64,000 bases of DNA from assembly GCF_001425055.1 (NCBI RefSeq), contig NZ_LMDK01000002.1:62001-126000 (forward strand). Direction: 5' to 3'. The notes under the pieces were generated by a model that saw only the letters and a program-made list of their open reading frames with translations, was not told the DNA's origin and made no database searches. This DNA is from Pelomonas sp. Root1237 (GTDB lineage: Bacteria; Pseudomonadota; Gammaproteobacteria; Burkholderiales; Burkholderiaceae_C). This document shows, piece after piece, positions 50,044 to 55,463 of this stretch; position 1 is the first letter of the stretch, and each line of letters begins with the position of its first letter. Made by a program: the position numbers and the translations under genes.

Positions 50044-50751
50044 TCAGTCACGCGACCGGGGCAGGGCTTGGCGCCGCCCCAGGACAGTCAGCGATGCAAG
50101 GCCGAGCATCAAGCTCAGCCAGGCTGCGGGCTCCGGCACGGGAGACTGCGGGTCGTTGGCGCCCAGGGTCAGGTCGTCCCACACCACCTTGCCCGGCTGC
50201 CCGGTAAACACCACCGACTTCGCCACGCCCGAGAAGGAGTACCCGCCCGGCCCGAAGGGGCACCGGCTGGCGTTGTAGGCCGCGCAACCTGGCGAGCCCG
50301 GCAGCAGCACCAGCGGCGGCGCCAACAGTGCACCGTTGCCGCCCAGGCCGCTGTAGGCAGAAATAGTTGCCACCGAGCCAGGCGCCACCGCGTAGCTGAA
50401 GCCGATCGCGAAGCTGAAGCCGCTGGGAAAGTCGAAATACGTTGAGGTGCCACTGCCGATGCCCATACCGCCCTGCGACGAGGTCACCGACAGGCCGCCG
50501 CGCGAGGCATTCGAGCAGCTTCCGCCCAGCGCATTCAGGCAAACCGCCACCGCGTTGCTCGCGAAGGTCGCGCCCAGATTGGCGCCCGTCGTGCCCTGGC
50601 TGCTGGTGCCGCCGCTGTAAAAGCTCAGGATGTCGGCGTAGCTGGTGCTGGGATAAGTGGCGTTCACGCCTTCGAACCCAATGACCACCACCGCCTGCGC
50701 GGGGGCGGCGAGCAGGGCAGAGAAAGCGGCCGCAAGCAGTAGATGTCGCAT
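50044..50751 (-). CDS. PEP-CTERM sorted exported protein
   Basis: 235 residues. Signal peptide MRHLLLAAAFSALLAAPAQA and a C-terminal sorting signal PVPEPAAWLSLMLGLASLTVLGRRQ: a VPEP motif, a membrane helix and a basic end. Exosortase EpsH-type systems recognise this signal and place such proteins at the cell surface or in biofilm matrix. The core is Gly/Ser-rich with four Cys residues. Its ligand or role is unknown. GAGGA lies upstream of this ATG. Confidence 0.82.
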   Translation of the reverse strand: MRHLLLAAAFSALLAAPAQAVVVIGFEGVNATYPSTSYADILSFYSGGTSSQGTTGANLGATFASNAVAVCLNALGGSCSNASRGGLSVTSSQGGMGIGSGTSTYFDFPSGFSFAIGFSYAVAPGSVATISAYSGLGGNGALLAPPLVLLPGSPGCAAYNASRCPFGPGGYSFSGVAKSVVFTGQPGKVVWDDLTLGANDPQSPVPEPAAWLSLMLGLASLTVLGRRQALPRSRD

Positions 50752-50867
50752 GGTGCTGATCCTCAGGATGCCCAAAGGCTCAGGCTACTCCCGGGCGCGC
50801 CGGGCCGCGCCCCCGACCCCTTGATTTACCCCTTGATTCGGGGGCCCGCACTCAAGCGCCAGTGCGA

Positions 50868-51995
50868 TCAGGCCCGTGTCGCGCGAACCGCCTCGGACAG
50901 CACGTCCAGCACGGCCAGGGAGTCGTCCCAGCCCAGGCAGGCATCGGTGATGCTCTTGCCGTATTCGAGTGCGGCCGGGTCGTCCTTGCCGGGCGTGAAC
51001 TTCTGGGCGCCGTCATGCAGGTGGCTTTCCACCATGACGCCGAAGATGCTCTTGCCGCCCTCGCGCATCTGGCCGGCAATGTCGCGCGCCACGTCCAGCT
51101 GGCGCTGGTGCTGCTTGCTGGAGTTGGCGTGCGAACAGTCCACCATCAGGCGCTGCGGCAGCTTGGACTTGGCCAGGTCAGCGCAGGCCTCGGCGACACT
51201 CTTGGCGTCGTAGTTGGGCGCCTTGCCGCCGCGCAGGATGACGTGGCAGTCGGCATTGCCGCGCGTCTCGACGATGGCGACCTGGCCGTTCTTGTGCACC
51301 GACAGGAAGTGGTGGCCGCGGGCGGCGGCCTGGATGGCATCGGTGGCGATCTTGATGTTGCCATCGGTGCCGTTCTTGAAGCCGATGGGCGCCGAGAGGC
51401 CCGAAGCCAGCTCGCGGTGCACCTGGCTTTCGGTCGTGCGCGCACCGATGGCGCCCCAGGCGATCAAGTCGCCGATGTACTGCGGCGAGATGACGTCAAG
51501 GAACTCGCTGCCGGCCGGCACGCCCAGGCGGTTGATCTCCAGCAGCAGCTGGCGGGCGATGCGCAGGCCTTCGTCGATGCGGTAGCTCTCGTCCAGGTAG
51601 GGGTCGTTGATCAGGCCCTTCCAGCCGACGGTGGTGCGTGGCTTCTCGAAGTAGACGCGCATGACGATCTCCAGCGTGCCGGCGTACTTCTCGCGCTGCT
51701 CCTTGAGCTTGCGGGCGTACTCGATGGCGGCCGTCGGGTCGTGGATGGAGCAGGGGCCGATGACGACGAGCAGCCGGTCGTCCTCGCCGCTCATGATCCT
51801 GCGGATGCGCTGGCGGGTCTGGCCGATCAGGTTCTCCATCGCCGTGCCGCGGATGGGGAAGAAGCGGATCAGATGTTCCGGCGGCGGCAGCGGCGTGACG
51901 TCGACGATGCGCTCGTCGTCGGTGGCACTGGTCTTGTCGTCCTGGGAGTACCAGCGCTGGGCTTCGGGTTCGACGGAGGAGACTTTGGCGTTCAT
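50868..51995 (-). CDS. aroG: 3-deoxy-7-phosphoheptulonate synthase (DAHP synthase), class I
   Basis: 375 residues. VVIGPCSIHDPTAAIEYARKL, RVYFEKPRTTVGWKGLINDPYLDESYRIDEGLRIAR, GFKNGTDGNI, HVILRGGKAPNYD and MVDCSHANSSK are the substrate and metal sites of AroFGH enzymes. It catalyses the first step of the shikimate pathway from PEP and erythrose 4-phosphate. The upstream region encodes a Tyr/Phe/Trp-rich leader peptide and a terminator, so expression is probably controlled by attenuation. Confidence 0.96.
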   Translation of the reverse strand: MNAKVSSVEPEAQRWYSQDDKTSATDDERIVDVTPLPPPEHLIRFFPIRGTAMENLIGQTRQRIRRIMSGEDDRLLVVIGPCSIHDPTAAIEYARKLKEQREKYAGTLEIVMRVYFEKPRTTVGWKGLINDPYLDESYRIDEGLRIARQLLLEINRLGVPAGSEFLDVISPQYIGDLIAWGAIGARTTESQVHRELASGLSAPIGFKNGTDGNIKIATDAIQAAARGHHFLSVHKNGQVAIVETRGNADCHVILRGGKAPNYDAKSVAEACADLAKSKLPQRLMVDCSHANSSKQHQRQLDVARDIAGQMREGGKSIFGVMVESHLHDGAQKFTPGKDDPAALEYGKSITDACLGWDDSLAVLDVLSEAVRATRA

Positions 51996-52009: not shown

Positions 52010-52050
52010 AGAAAACAAAAAACCGCCGGGCTTTGCGGGCCCGGCGGTTT
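52010..52050 (-). terminator. Intrinsic terminator in the aroG leader (attenuator)
   Basis: On the minus strand AAACCGCCGGGC (52050-52039) pairs perfectly with GCCCGGCGGTTT (52031-52020), then TTTGTTTT follows. It ends about 15 bases before the aroG start codon. Because aroG lies directly downstream with no other gene between, the hairpin acts on aroG itself. The left arm ACCGCCGGG (52048-52040) can alternatively pair with CCCGGCGGT (52099-52091) inside the leader peptide coding sequence, a competing antiterminator. Confidence 0.85.
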
Positions 52051-52078
52051 GTAGGGAGTCTGGGTTCAGCGCGCGCGC

Positions 52079-52141
52079 TCAGGACTCTCCACCGCCGGGG
52101 CGGGGAAAAAACCAAAAGCTAAAGTAAGCAGCGCGGGACAT
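52079..52141 (-). CDS. Aromatic-amino-acid leader peptide of aroG
   Basis: A 20-codon open frame, MSRAAYFSFWFFPRPGGGES, ends 28 bases before the attenuator stem. Six of seven residues 6-12 are aromatic (Tyr, Phe, Phe, Trp, Phe, Phe, with one Ser). Codons 15-17 (CCC GGC GGT) form the segment able to pair with the left arm of the terminator. Ribosome stalling on Phe/Tyr/Trp codons when charged tRNA is scarce would leave this segment free to pair as antiterminator and let aroG be transcribed. No strong ribosome-binding site precedes the ATG; a -10 box lies so close that the message may be leaderless. Confidence 0.8.
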   Translation of the reverse strand: MSRAAYFSFWFFPRPGGGES

Positions 52142-52149
52142 GGGAGCGG

Positions 52150-52155
52150 AATCTA
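52150..52155 (-). promoter_or_regulatory. Possible extended -10 promoter of aroG leader
   Basis: TGCTAGATT on the minus strand gives TAGATT preceded by TGn. Eight bases separate it from the leader ATG, so transcription could start at or next to the A of the ATG. No good -35 box at standard spacing was seen. Confidence 0.4.
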
Positions 52156-52200
52156 GCACGCTGGCCGGCGCAGTCGTTCGTGAAGCGCCAAGCCAGGCTT

Positions 52201-53664
52201 TCAAGCCGTGCCACCCACCGTCAATCCCTCGATCCGCAACGTCGGCTGCCCGACCCCCACCGGCACGCTCTGCCCTTCCTTGCCGCAGACGCCCACACCG
52301 GTGTCCAGCGCCATGTCATTGCCGATCATGCTGACGCGGGTCAGCGCGTCCGGGCCGTTGCCAATGATGGTGGCACCCTTGACCGGGTACTGGATCTTGC
52401 CGTTCTCGACCCAGTAGGCCTCGCTGGCCGAGAACACGAACTTGCCGCTGGTGATGTCGACCTGGCCGCCGCCGAAGTTGGTGGCGTACAGGCCCTTCTT
52501 GATCGACGCGACGATCTCCTTGGGATCGTCCTTGCCGCCCAGCATGTAGGTGTTGGTCATGCGCGGCATCGGCACATGGGCATAGCTCTCGCGGCGGCCG
52601 TTGCCGGTCGGGGCGACCTTCATCAGCCGCGCATTCATCGCGTCCTGGATATAGCCCTTCAGGATGCCGTCCTCGATCAGCACATTGCGCTGGCTGGCAC
52701 AGCCCTCGTCGTCGACGTTGAGCGAGCCGCGGCGGTCGGGGATGGTGCCGTCGTCCAGCACCGTCACGCCCTTGGAAGCCACGCGCTGGCCGATGCGGCC
52801 GGCAAAGGCGCTCGAGCCCTTGCGGTTGAAGTCGCCCTCCAGGCCGTGGCCAACAGCTTCATGCAGCAGCACACCGGGCCAGCCCGGGCCGACCACGACG
52901 ACCATCTCGCCGGCCGGCGCCGGGCGGCTTTCCAGATTCGTCAGCGCGGCGTGCACCGCCTGCTCGACATAGCTGGCGATCATCTCGTCAGTGAAATAGG
53001 CCAGGCCGAAGCGCCCACCGCCGCCGCCCGAGCCGACCTCGCGGCGGCCATTGCTCTCGGCGATGACGGTGATGGACAGGCGCACCAGCGGGCGCACGTC
53101 CGCTGCCAGCGTGCCGTCGGCACGCGCGATCAGCACCACCTCGTGCTCAGCGGCCAGGCCGGCCATGACCTGAGCGACGCGCGGGTCCTTGGCGCGGGCC
53201 ATCTTCTCGGCGCGCTCCAGCAGTGCGACCTTGGCGGCACTGTCGAGGCTGGCAATGGGGTCGGACACGCCGTACAGCTCGCGGCTGCCGGCCACGCGAC
53301 CCTGCGAAGGCACCTTGACCTTCTTGCTCTGCCCAGCCGCGGCGATGGTGCGCACGGTGCGCGCGGCATCCAGCAGCGAATCGAGCGAGATGTCGTCCGA
53401 GTAGGCGAATGCCGTCTTCTCGCCGGCCACGGCGCGCACGCCGACGCCTTGGTCGATGCTGAAGCTGCCGCTCTTGACGATACCCTCCTCCAGGCTCCAG
53501 CCCTCGGCGCGCGTGGTCTGGAAGTAGAGGTCGGCGTCGTCGACGCGATGCTCGGTGATGAGGCGCAACGCCTGCGAGAGCGAGGCCTCGGTCAGGCCGA
53601 AGGGCTCCAGCAGTTGCGAGCGGGCGGTGGCCAGGCGGGCCAGGGTGGGTTCGACGGCGATCAT
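52201..53664 (-). CDS. tldD: Metalloprotease TldD
   Basis: 487 residues. The zinc motif HEAVGHGLEGD (HExxxH), upstream DQGVGVRAVAGEKTAFAYSDD and C-terminal CGKEGQSVPVGVGQPTLRIEGLTVGG are diagnostic. TldD works with TldE/PmbA to degrade unfolded peptides and mature small peptides such as microcins. No tldE is adjacent. The gap to the aroG leader is only 59 bases, in which the aroG promoter must lie if it is separate. Confidence 0.96.
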   Translation of the reverse strand: MIAVEPTLARLATARSQLLEPFGLTEASLSQALRLITEHRVDDADLYFQTTRAEGWSLEEGIVKSGSFSIDQGVGVRAVAGEKTAFAYSDDISLDSLLDAARTVRTIAAAGQSKKVKVPSQGRVAGSRELYGVSDPIASLDSAAKVALLERAEKMARAKDPRVAQVMAGLAAEHEVVLIARADGTLAADVRPLVRLSITVIAESNGRREVGSGGGGGRFGLAYFTDEMIASYVEQAVHAALTNLESRPAPAGEMVVVVGPGWPGVLLHEAVGHGLEGDFNRKGSSAFAGRIGQRVASKGVTVLDDGTIPDRRGSLNVDDEGCASQRNVLIEDGILKGYIQDAMNARLMKVAPTGNGRRESYAHVPMPRMTNTYMLGGKDDPKEIVASIKKGLYATNFGGGQVDITSGKFVFSASEAYWVENGKIQYPVKGATIIGNGPDALTRVSMIGNDMALDTGVGVCGKEGQSVPVGVGQPTLRIEGLTVGGTA

Positions 53665-54212: not shown

Positions 54213-54275
54213 CCGGCGAGGCGAGGCCCCGCACAGCATGCGGCGTATCCGTCCTTCACGGATTTGGAGCGCCGC

Positions 54276-55463
54276 ATGAAGCTTTTCCCGCTCGCCACGC
54301 TGGCCCTGGCCGCTGCTGCCGGTCCTGCCTTCGCCGCCACCCTGGTCGGCTCGGGCTATGAGCAGCCCGTCTTCCTGACCGCCCCCAGCGGCGATTCGCG
54401 GCTCTTCATCGTTGAGAAGACCGGGCGCATCAAGGTGCAGGACAGCGGCGGCACTGTTTCGACCTGGCTCAACCTGTCTGGGCAGGTCGACACCGGCGGC
54501 GAGCGCGGCCTGCTGGGCCTGGCCTTCGACCCCGGCTTCGCGAACAACGGCCGCTTCTATGTCGACTACATCGACAAGACGACACTGAGCACCGTCGTCG
54601 CGAGCTACACCGTCAACGGCGCAGGTGCCGTGGACCTGGCCAGCGCCAAGACGGTCATCACGGTGGCCCAGCCGGCCGGGCGCAGCAACCACAAGGCGGG
54701 CTGGATCGGCTTCAGCGCCGCGGATCCTGGCCATCTCTACGTGGCCACCGGCGACGGCGGCAGCGGCAACGACCCCGACAACAACGCCCAGAACCTTTCC
54801 AGCAACCTCGGCAAGCTGCTGCGCATCACGCCCAACGCCGCGGGCGGCTACACGGTGCCAACGGACAACCCCTTTGTCGGCGTGGCCGGCAATGACGAGA
54901 TCTGGGCCTATGGCTTGCGCAACCCCTACCGCAACAGCTTCGACCGCCAGACGGGCGACCTGTGGATTGGCGACGTGGGCCAGGGCGCGCGGGAAGAAGT
55001 GGATTTCGCTTCCGCTGCCTCGGGCCTCGGCCGTGGCGCCAACTACGGCTGGCGCGTGCGCGAGGGCACGATCGCTACGCCCGGGATCAGCGACCCCACG
55101 CCGCCCAACCTGACCGAGCCTATCTACGACTACGGCCGCGCCAACGGCGATGCCACCGTCATTGGCGGCTATGTCTACCGTGGCGGCGCGGATGCCAGCC
55201 TTGAGGGCAAATACGTGTTCGGCGACTACATCTCCGGCCGCATCTGGACCCTGAACGGCGGTACCGCCACGCCACTGGCCTCGCCCTTCGGCGGCTCGAC
55301 GCTGACCAGCTTCGGCGAAGGAGGCAATGGCGCCCTCTATGCCGTCGGCATTGACGGCAATGTCTATCTGCTCGCTGCCGCGGTGCCCGAGCCCGCGCCC
55401 GCGCTGTTGCTGGCCCTGGGCCTGGCGGCCGGCAGCCTCTTCACTCGTCGCCGCCGCGCTTGA
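54276..55463 (+). CDS. Secreted PQQ-type sugar dehydrogenase-like beta-propeller with PEP-CTERM signal
   Basis: 395 residues from the ATG at 54276 (GGAG 6 bases upstream). Signal peptide MKLFPLATLALAAAAGPAFA. Propeller motifs of the glucose/sorbosone dehydrogenase family: SRLFIVEKTGRIKV, ERGLLGLAFDPGF, GRFYVDYID, NHKAGWIGFS, LYVATGDGGSGNDPDNNAQ and DEIWAYGLRNPYRNSFDRQTGDLWIGDVGQGAREEVDF. The C terminus AVPEPAPALLLALGLAAGSLFTRRRRA is a PEP-CTERM sorting signal. Probably a surface-located sugar or aldose oxidoreductase; whether it binds PQQ is not shown. The 3' end overlaps rsmI by 23 bases. Confidence 0.85.
   Translation: MKLFPLATLALAAAAGPAFAATLVGSGYEQPVFLTAPSGDSRLFIVEKTGRIKVQDSGGTVSTWLNLSGQVDTGGERGLLGLAFDPGFANNGRFYVDYIDKTTLSTVVASYTVNGAGAVDLASAKTVITVAQPAGRSNHKAGWIGFSAADPGHLYVATGDGGSGNDPDNNAQNLSSNLGKLLRITPNAAGGYTVPTDNPFVGVAGNDEIWAYGLRNPYRNSFDRQTGDLWIGDVGQGAREEVDFASAASGLGRGANYGWRVREGTIATPGISDPTPPNLTEPIYDYGRANGDATVIGGYVYRGGADASLEGKYVFGDYISGRIWTLNGGTATPLASPFGGSTLTSFGEGGNGALYAVGIDGNVYLLAAAVPEPAPALLLALGLAAGSLFTRRRRA

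Follow-up and report, generated by a model that had tools for sequence, protein, structure and literature searches.

A putative ribosome-mediated attenuator with a mixed Phe/Tyr/Trp leader peptide upstream of the DAHP-synthase gene aroG of Pelomonas sp. Root1237 and related Burkholderiales

Introduction

The synthesis of all three aromatic amino acids begins with DAHP synthase. In E. coli, the attenuators pheL-pheA and trpL-trpEDCBA combine leader codons for the end product with a terminator and an antiterminator; each of them responds to one amino acid, and their targets are located downstream of chorismate and not at the pathway entry. These leaders start from Shine-Dalgarno sites, the trp model includes a 1:2 hairpin and, according to the same model, leaders left untranslated terminate.

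Attenuation of a DAHP-synthase gene has been described for aroR-aroF of C. glutamicum (Neshat et al. 2014, as cited in PMC11802643; the leader is also found in PMC4046766), in which a short Phe-Tyr-Phe leader precedes the gene and expression increases under Phe limitation. The Acholeplasma uORFC-13-1 motif, a computational prediction (PMC8632094), consists of an upstream open reading frame (uORF) with at least one Phe codon and a terminator, and is found only upstream of the DAHP-synthase gene aroF; 24 representatives are given, only from Acholeplasma and environmental sequences, and an extra base-paired substructure is reported. Attenuators have also been predicted before the DAHP-synthase gene aroA-tyrA in Vibrio (Table 7 of PMC1173090) and before the DAHP-synthase genes aroF and aroH in Shewanella (PMC2659441), so that RNA-level control has been proposed at the same enzyme step, although in gammaproteobacteria. 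In the alphaproteobacterium S. meliloti the transcript of the trpL-trpE(G) attenuator begins with the ATG of the leader ORF, that is, it is leaderless; this system differs from the one described here in its Trp codons, in its target trpE(G) and in that its RNA and peptide also act in trans (PMC7298713).

No DAHP-synthase attenuator described for Burkholderiales was found in the open-access literature, to which the search was confined, and the portions consulted of PMC2965389, PMC4603805 and PMC5688073 make no mention of one; Table S3 of PMC5688073, which covers 82 short 5'UTRs of B. cenocepacia, may list an aroG-type leader. The initial annotation of this locus, made from the sequence, had noted no described case of attenuation of a DAHP-synthase gene in Burkholderiales, which holds within this literature, whereas attenuation of DAHP synthase as such is known from C. 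glutamicum, Acholeplasma and the Vibrio and Shewanella predictions.

Organization of the aroG leader region

The window, as the whole 64,000-nucleotide stretch of DNA analysed is called here, includes an aroG leader region between the end of tldD (52201) and the start of aroG (51995), with all elements on the minus strand. The features are the following:

52150-52158, minus strand: putative extended -10 promoter element TGC-TAGATT, with 8 nt between its last base and the leader ATG
52079-52141, minus strand: leader ORF (uORF) of 20 codons plus TGA, from the ATG at 52141 to the TGA at 52079, encoding MSRAAYFSFWFFPRPGGGES
52106-52126, minus strand: control codons Tyr6-Phe7-Ser8-Phe9-Trp10-Phe11-Phe12 (TAC TTT AGC TTT TGG TTT TTT), read from the sequence
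52091-52099, minus strand: 5' arm of the antiterminator, formed by codons 15-17 (CCCGGCGGT) and mimicking the terminator right arm, from complementarity and folds
52083-52087, minus strand: inner antiterminator part GAGTC, which pairs with GACTC at 52060-52056 in the fold
52056-52060, minus strand: inner antiterminator part GACTC, from the fold
52039-52050, minus strand: shared arm, both terminator left arm and antiterminator 3' arm, from folds and covariation
52020-52031, minus strand: terminator right arm, from the hairpin and covariation
52011-52019, minus strand: T-rich tail of the terminator, from the sequence
50868-51995, minus strand: aroG, type I DAHP synthase (3-deoxy-7-phosphoheptulonate synthase), the putatively regulated gene (TIGR00034, Pfam DAHP_synth_1)

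The 20-codon frame with a Tyr-Phe-Ser-Phe-Trp-Phe-Phe run noticed in the initial annotation was borne out at 52141-52079, with six F/Y/W residues within a seven-codon stretch. The 9-base match proposed between codons 15-17 (52099-52091) and the left arm of the terminator is likewise borne out by the sequence, complementarity to ACCGCCGGG (52048-52040) in that arm being perfect throughout the 9 nt. The terminator itself, described earlier as a 12-bp stem ending about 15 bases before aroG, was located at 52050-52020 and has 12 pairs (9 of them G-C) and a loop of 7 nt followed by TTTGTTTTCT; 25 nt separate its hairpin from aroG, and about 15 nt lie between the end of the T-rich tail and the aroG ATG at 51995. 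The assignment of aroG as a DAHP-synthase gene was confirmed with TIGR00034 (532 bits, cut-off 173) and with Pfam DAHP_synth_1.

This arrangement is interpreted as a ribosome-mediated transcription attenuator of aroG, with a probability of about 0.9 as judged from sequence analysis. In the mechanism proposed, transcription would start at or beside the leader ATG and a ribosome would load on the 5' end of the transcript without a Shine-Dalgarno site. When charged tRNA-Phe (and, by extension, tRNA-Tyr or tRNA-Trp) is scarce, the ribosome would stall in the run of Phe/Tyr/Trp codons, leaving codons 15-17 free to pair with the emerging left arm of the terminator, and RNA polymerase would read into aroG. 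With plentiful charged tRNA, the ribosome would cover codons 15-17 while the terminator forms, and most transcripts would end about 15 nt before aroG.

The tldD gene (52201-53664, minus strand) ends about 60 nt upstream of the leader ORF on the same strand, and its read-through would yield an aroG leader with a 5' UTR but without a Shine-Dalgarno site. In the relative L304, tldD is likewise located upstream of the leader, with one extra reading frame in between as seen by eye.

Occurrence and distribution

Upstream regions of DAHP-synthase genes were collected from named genomes, from the genus and from 150 genomes spread over the order; 216 out of 219 loci were kept after dropping one with no recognisable aroG (L178) and two with less than 120 nt upstream. 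The threshold applied was the number of aromatic residues (F/Y/W) in 8 codons, which is 4-8 in the leaders found. A leader followed by a terminator was present at 115, 113 and 106 of the 216 regions at thresholds 4, 5 and 6, respectively; the controls gave 7, 1 and 0 cases in 2160 dinucleotide shuffles and 1, 1 and 0 in the 216 reverse-complemented regions. When both strands of the window were scanned, the aroG leader was the single place showing an ORF with at least 5 aromatic residues in 8 codons and then a terminator within 75 nt.

The element was found in all 20 genus genomes, at 62 of the 80 named loci (one of which, L027, has almost no upstream sequence) and in 34 of the 97 order genomes read, corresponding to 13 of 32 families and 26 of 64 genera; these 97 upstream regions were read among the 115 order genomes with a DAHP synthase. 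The comparison of aroG upstream regions from relatives, suggested in the initial annotation as a check, has thus revealed that the frame, the aromatic run, the terminator and the antiterminator are kept across many genera. The outcome named there as refuting the proposal, a leader frame without conservation in close relatives, was therefore not observed.

The 101 loci that lack the leader are in part second paralogues (in the genus, none of 10 loci of the second DAHP synthase carries it) and otherwise belong to lineages such as the sampled Polynucleobacter and Methylotenera. Some Cupriavidus copies and Polynucleobacter (L029, L038, L032-L034) have a close DAHP synthase without leader. Outside the order, a leader was found at only one (L234) of the 29 loci read, from 55 genomes with a match. 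At this locus, an aromatic leader and a terminator like those within the order precede a DAHP-synthase gene; the enzyme falls with Oxalobacteraceae, on a long branch, and may be a transferred copy.

In a tree of the enzymes, which was a quick one rooted at the midpoint, all 89 leader-bearing rows fell in one group of 117 rows, and the second paralogue, whose long branch may be misplaced, fell in the other group together with leader-free enzymes from other orders of the class. The distribution of the leader needs at least 11 changes on this tree (6 of them forced by well-supported branches), versus 49 for shuffled labels. These data fit a putatively old element that would have been lost in some lineages, including the sampled Polynucleobacter, Methylotenera and some Cupriavidus copies.

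Specificity for DAHP synthase

A covariance model (R1) was built on the leader tail and the terminator. In the genome of strain Root1237 it scored 72 bits at the aroG leader and 33 bits at the next-best place. The latter was rejected as a second copy: it is a simple terminator where two converging genes meet, and one of these genes was taken by eye for ribosomal protein L33. In the 150 order genomes, all 34 matches with E<1e-6 were just upstream of a DAHP synthase as compared by eye, 30 of these matches being part of the training alignment. A search of 100 family genomes from 99 genera, some of which repeat training species, was carried out with the stricter filters of Infernal, with which weak matches are lost, and gave a match at E up to 1e-6 in 95 genomes; the five genomes without a match consist of 210-700 contigs, with completeness values of 55-92. 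Ninety of the 96 family matches were read, and in 88 of them the gene that follows encodes a DAHP synthase. One of these 88 is the match in the window, and the other 87 all show an aromatic leader and a terminator. In the remaining two, one contig ends after an intact leader and the other match is a plain terminator.

Conservation of the uORF across the family could also be expected if the ORF encoded a small protein, or if the terminated RNA were a small RNA, acting in trans, with a terminator that merely ends this gene; both a trans-acting RNA and a trans-acting peptide are indeed derived from the trp attenuator of S. meliloti (PMC7298713). This explanation is considered extremely improbable, as what is conserved is aromaticity and the pairing nucleotides and not a fixed peptide, 88 of the 90 strong matches read adjoin a DAHP synthase located downstream of them, and one arm of the terminator covaries with the leader tail (see below); an action in trans would be conceivable in addition to attenuation, not instead of it.

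In this genome, no aromatic uORF was found in the stretch read upstream of the prephenate dehydratase gene or of a second chorismate-binding gene. No TrpR match was obtained in it, and two matches to the TyrR-type DNA-binding domain were both below the curated cut-off. Comparison with NCBIfam and Pfam gave no family for 8 leader peptides at E up to 1, peptides so short being hard to match.

A further explanation is that the terminator is controlled by a protein, a riboswitch ligand or Rho, the ORF being a passenger. Folding models give it some backing: in 69 of 97 loci, upstream pairing of the shared arm is predicted with no ribosome on the leader. However, no Rfam family reached its gathering score in the window or in 12 relatives, and the Trp, Phe, His, Leu and Thr leaders and the T-box were absent from the 13 weak Rfam matches obtained. 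The consensus fold consists of two alternative hairpins and little else, and the frame of the ORF, its aromatic codons and the spacing to the antiterminator are all conserved, so that control of this kind is regarded as just as improbable as a role in trans only.

Codon choice and putative signals

The 115 leaders contain Phe in all cases, Tyr in 106 and Trp in 90. The codon TTT accounts for 302 of 455 Phe codons in the leaders (66%) versus 110 of 808 in aroG (14%) at the same 102 loci; near-copies from the genus were kept in the leader codon counts. Sixteen genus members have an ORF of equal length; among these, codon 6 reads TAC 11 times and TTT 5 times, and codon 12 reads TTT 15 times and TAT once. 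This exchange between Phe and Tyr suggests that selection keeps an aromatic residue rather than a given one.

These codon data also bear on the possibility that the leader product is an arrest peptide responding to a drug or to some free aromatic compound, in the way TnaC responds to free Trp, and not to uncharged tRNA. Arrest peptides that sense free Trp exist (PMC8429421), and the peptide parts FWF, PGGREA and PLADREG recur in related loci. Against this, Phe and Tyr are swapped within the genus at codons 6 (TAC/TTT) and 12 (TTT/TAT), the tails differ among clades (GGRE, PLADREG, KAVE) with the pairing nucleotides kept, and a sensor working at the peptide level has no need for the preference for TTT, the disfavoured Phe codon. 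Such a sensor is thus judged very unlikely, if marginally less so than the two explanations considered above.

In the attenuator reading, the presence of Phe in all leaders and the preference for TTT relative to aroG usage make Phe the safest assignment among the signals, with Tyr and Trp as likely further ones. The case of C. glutamicum aroR is a warning with respect to Tyr, since Tyr availability was reported to have no effect there (PMC11802643).

Promoter and start of the leader transcript

The extended -10 element of the window predicts a transcription start at the A of the leader ATG or within about 2 nt of it. Among 96 loci, comprising the window and 95 loci outside the genus, 55 have a -10 hexamer (TAnnnT, with at least 4 of 6 matches) placed 6-9 nt upstream of the leader start codon, and the extended -10 TG was present in 47 of these 55. 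The 19 near-copies from the genus, kept out of this count, all show the hexamer at this distance and all with the TG, and the hexamer was also found in 80 of the 87 further family loci. In the control, for which a wider range was allowed, it appeared in 8.4% of shuffles. The -35 element is weak, with a mean match of 2.6 out of 6 versus 2.2 in shuffles, and TTG at the -35 spacing was found in 18 of the 55 loci versus 4.4 expected. With a simple sigma-70 search, no promoter was detected in the window.

A uniform promoter for all leaders was considered and rejected, as the near -10 is present in 55 of 96 loci and a far element in part of the others. In Burkholderia, Oxalobacteraceae and some other relatives a -10-like element is found about 22-41 nt upstream, still without a Shine-Dalgarno site. 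This far element, present in part of the loci without a near -10, has the form TTGnCA-N17/18-TATAAA or TATAGT and variants, the Burkholderia motif having been recognised by eye.

The leader start codon is ATG in 113 of 115 loci. A Shine-Dalgarno core precedes the leader ORF in 2 of 96 loci and in none of the 87 further family loci, versus 11 of 15 aroG genes with a clear start. The -10 box placed 6-9 nt before the start codon, together with the missing Shine-Dalgarno site, suggests that in the clade of the window the uORF is probably translated from a leaderless transcript. The aroR transcript of C. glutamicum is reportedly leaderless too, as predicted for the aroG leader.

Terminator and antiterminator

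When the alignment was folded with the right arm the terminator was obtained, and without the right arm the antiterminator, with little else in the consensus. The first alignment (A1) had 101 rows, with the core off by one base in some of them, and a trimmed alignment (A2) of 93 rows was prepared. Eight A1 rows are absent from A2 (L005, L039, L050, L062, L120, L126, L136 and L205), mostly near-duplicates, and 14 of the 20 genus rows were omitted from both alignments as near-copies; 18 near-copies were likewise omitted from the 97-locus antiterminator and stall-fold analyses described below.

Compensatory changes, for which the initial annotation had proposed to search in the stems, were found mainly at one base triple, formed by the terminator pair 114-130 and the antiterminator pair 16-114. 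Among the 93 rows, pair 114-130 is GC in 53, AU in 36 and UA in 2, and pair 16-114 is CG in 43, UA in 26, UG in 4 and AU in 2, with 18 rows unpaired there; these pair counts would have been reduced by inclusion of L005 and L120, two of the omitted rows, which have an altered core. The covariation scores of terminator and antiterminator were reached by none of 500 shuffles, and they fell when the partners were slid (terminator 0.147 versus at most 0.074; antiterminator 0.104 versus at most 0.049). The number of double-change pairs is unexceptional, being matched by 17 of 500 shuffles for the terminator and by 385 of 500 for the antiterminator. Most of the covariation signal comes from a single base of the shared arm, which varies with both of its partners, the rest of the core being nearly invariant. 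In the Oxalobacteraceae relatives L078 and L081 the shared arm exists in a third version (CCGCCTC...GAGGCGG) and the leader tail carries the A that matches it, so that the compensatory change is a triple one.

In all 97 loci the antiterminator helix begins inside the ORF; in 82 it does so 7-13 nt past the last aromatic codon, counted from the first base of that codon. In 63 of the 97 loci, none of 20 shuffles of the leader tail gave a helix as strong. In the window, the nascent antiterminator (transcript from 52104, right arm not yet made) has a predicted energy of -32 kcal/mol, with 3 of 200 shuffles doing as well. Folding of the complete leader minus the right arm gave no advantage over shuffled sequences, 35 of 200 of which did equally well. 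The calculated probability of the antiterminator is 0.98-1.0 for ribosomes stalled at codons 6-11 and 0.67 at codon 12. Once the complete terminator is present, it is favoured at equilibrium for every stall position in the window (probability 0.92-0.97). The decision would therefore have to be kinetic, with an antiterminator that persists kinetically.

In the folds without a ribosome, the upstream pairing of the shared arm in the 69 of 97 loci mentioned above has a probability greater than 0.5, so that an untranslated leader might be ON. The 1:2 (anti-antiterminator or pause) hairpin is at chance level, since 52 of 97 loci fold better than their own mean shuffle. It was rejected as unproven as a general feature of the family, and it is possible in Comamonadaceae and in a Polaromonas-Rhizobacter group, the two groups in which it is seen in the consensus without the right arm. 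The claim in the initial annotation that all elements of classical attenuation are present was accordingly sustained for the ORF, the aromatic run, the terminator and the antiterminator, but not for the 1:2 hairpin (52 of 97) or the Shine-Dalgarno site (2 of 96).

Comparison with known systems and implications

Three features appear to set the aroG attenuator apart, namely how widely it is spread, the combination of three amino acids in its leader and a start that is probably leaderless. The near -10 box, the probably leaderless uORF, the preference for TTT, the interchange of Phe and Tyr and the lack of general support for the 1:2 hairpin are new here. C. glutamicum aroR differs in belonging to an actinobacterium and in having FYF only, versus 4-8 F/Y/W residues in 8 codons in the leaders analysed, a comparison made by description (PMC11802643).

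A broader model can be offered tentatively, and it is held to be somewhat less probable than even. According to it, the element would be a leaderless two-state kinetic switch responding to all three aromatic amino acids, in which the stall would follow when just one of the charged tRNAs for Phe, Tyr and Trp is scarce, the 1:2 hairpin would not be obligatory and the untranslated leader would be ON. Across much of the betaproteobacteria, where TyrR/TrpR control of the gamma type is missing, it would be the main means of controlling DAHP synthase, and an ancestral one. In a comparative study of proteobacterial regulons, TrpR regulons are described for eight and TyrR regulons for six lineages of gammaproteobacteria (PMC5343134).

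An RNA switch present in 95 of 100 family genomes would give a direct and testable answer to how aromatic flux is set. If the transcript is leaderless, this would be another case, beside S. meliloti trpL, of attenuation with the ribosome loading on a bare 5' AUG. In the metabolic engineering of aromatics, aroG carrying its native leader may be throttled by rich medium.

Additional observations

A uORF with Trp codons, MFITRKYITGSSDRGAWPWRRWFTAD, was found upstream of trpE, the other chorismate-binding gene of this genome (520282-521763, minus strand; TIGR00564 531 bits, cut-off 518). The uORF has the extended -10 sequence TGA-TACACT 9 nt upstream of its ATG, and no Shine-Dalgarno site. A uORF with at least two Trp residues was present in all 30 relatives read (20 from the genus and 10 from the family), nearly always with the core RGAWPWR; a -10 element is located 6-10 nt upstream in 28 of them, a Shine-Dalgarno core in none, and a terminator follows the uORF in only two. 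No Rfam family matched six of these loci. This is probably a second leaderless uORF, and the fixed peptide and the missing terminator suggest a mechanism unlike that of the aroG leader, perhaps that of a Trp-linked arrest peptide.

In the window, the products of the genes at 50044-50775 (minus strand) and 54264-55463 (plus strand) show PEP-CTERM-like tails by eye; the former has a weak match to a PEP-CTERM family, below the cut-off, and the latter contains a glucose/sorbosone dehydrogenase domain.
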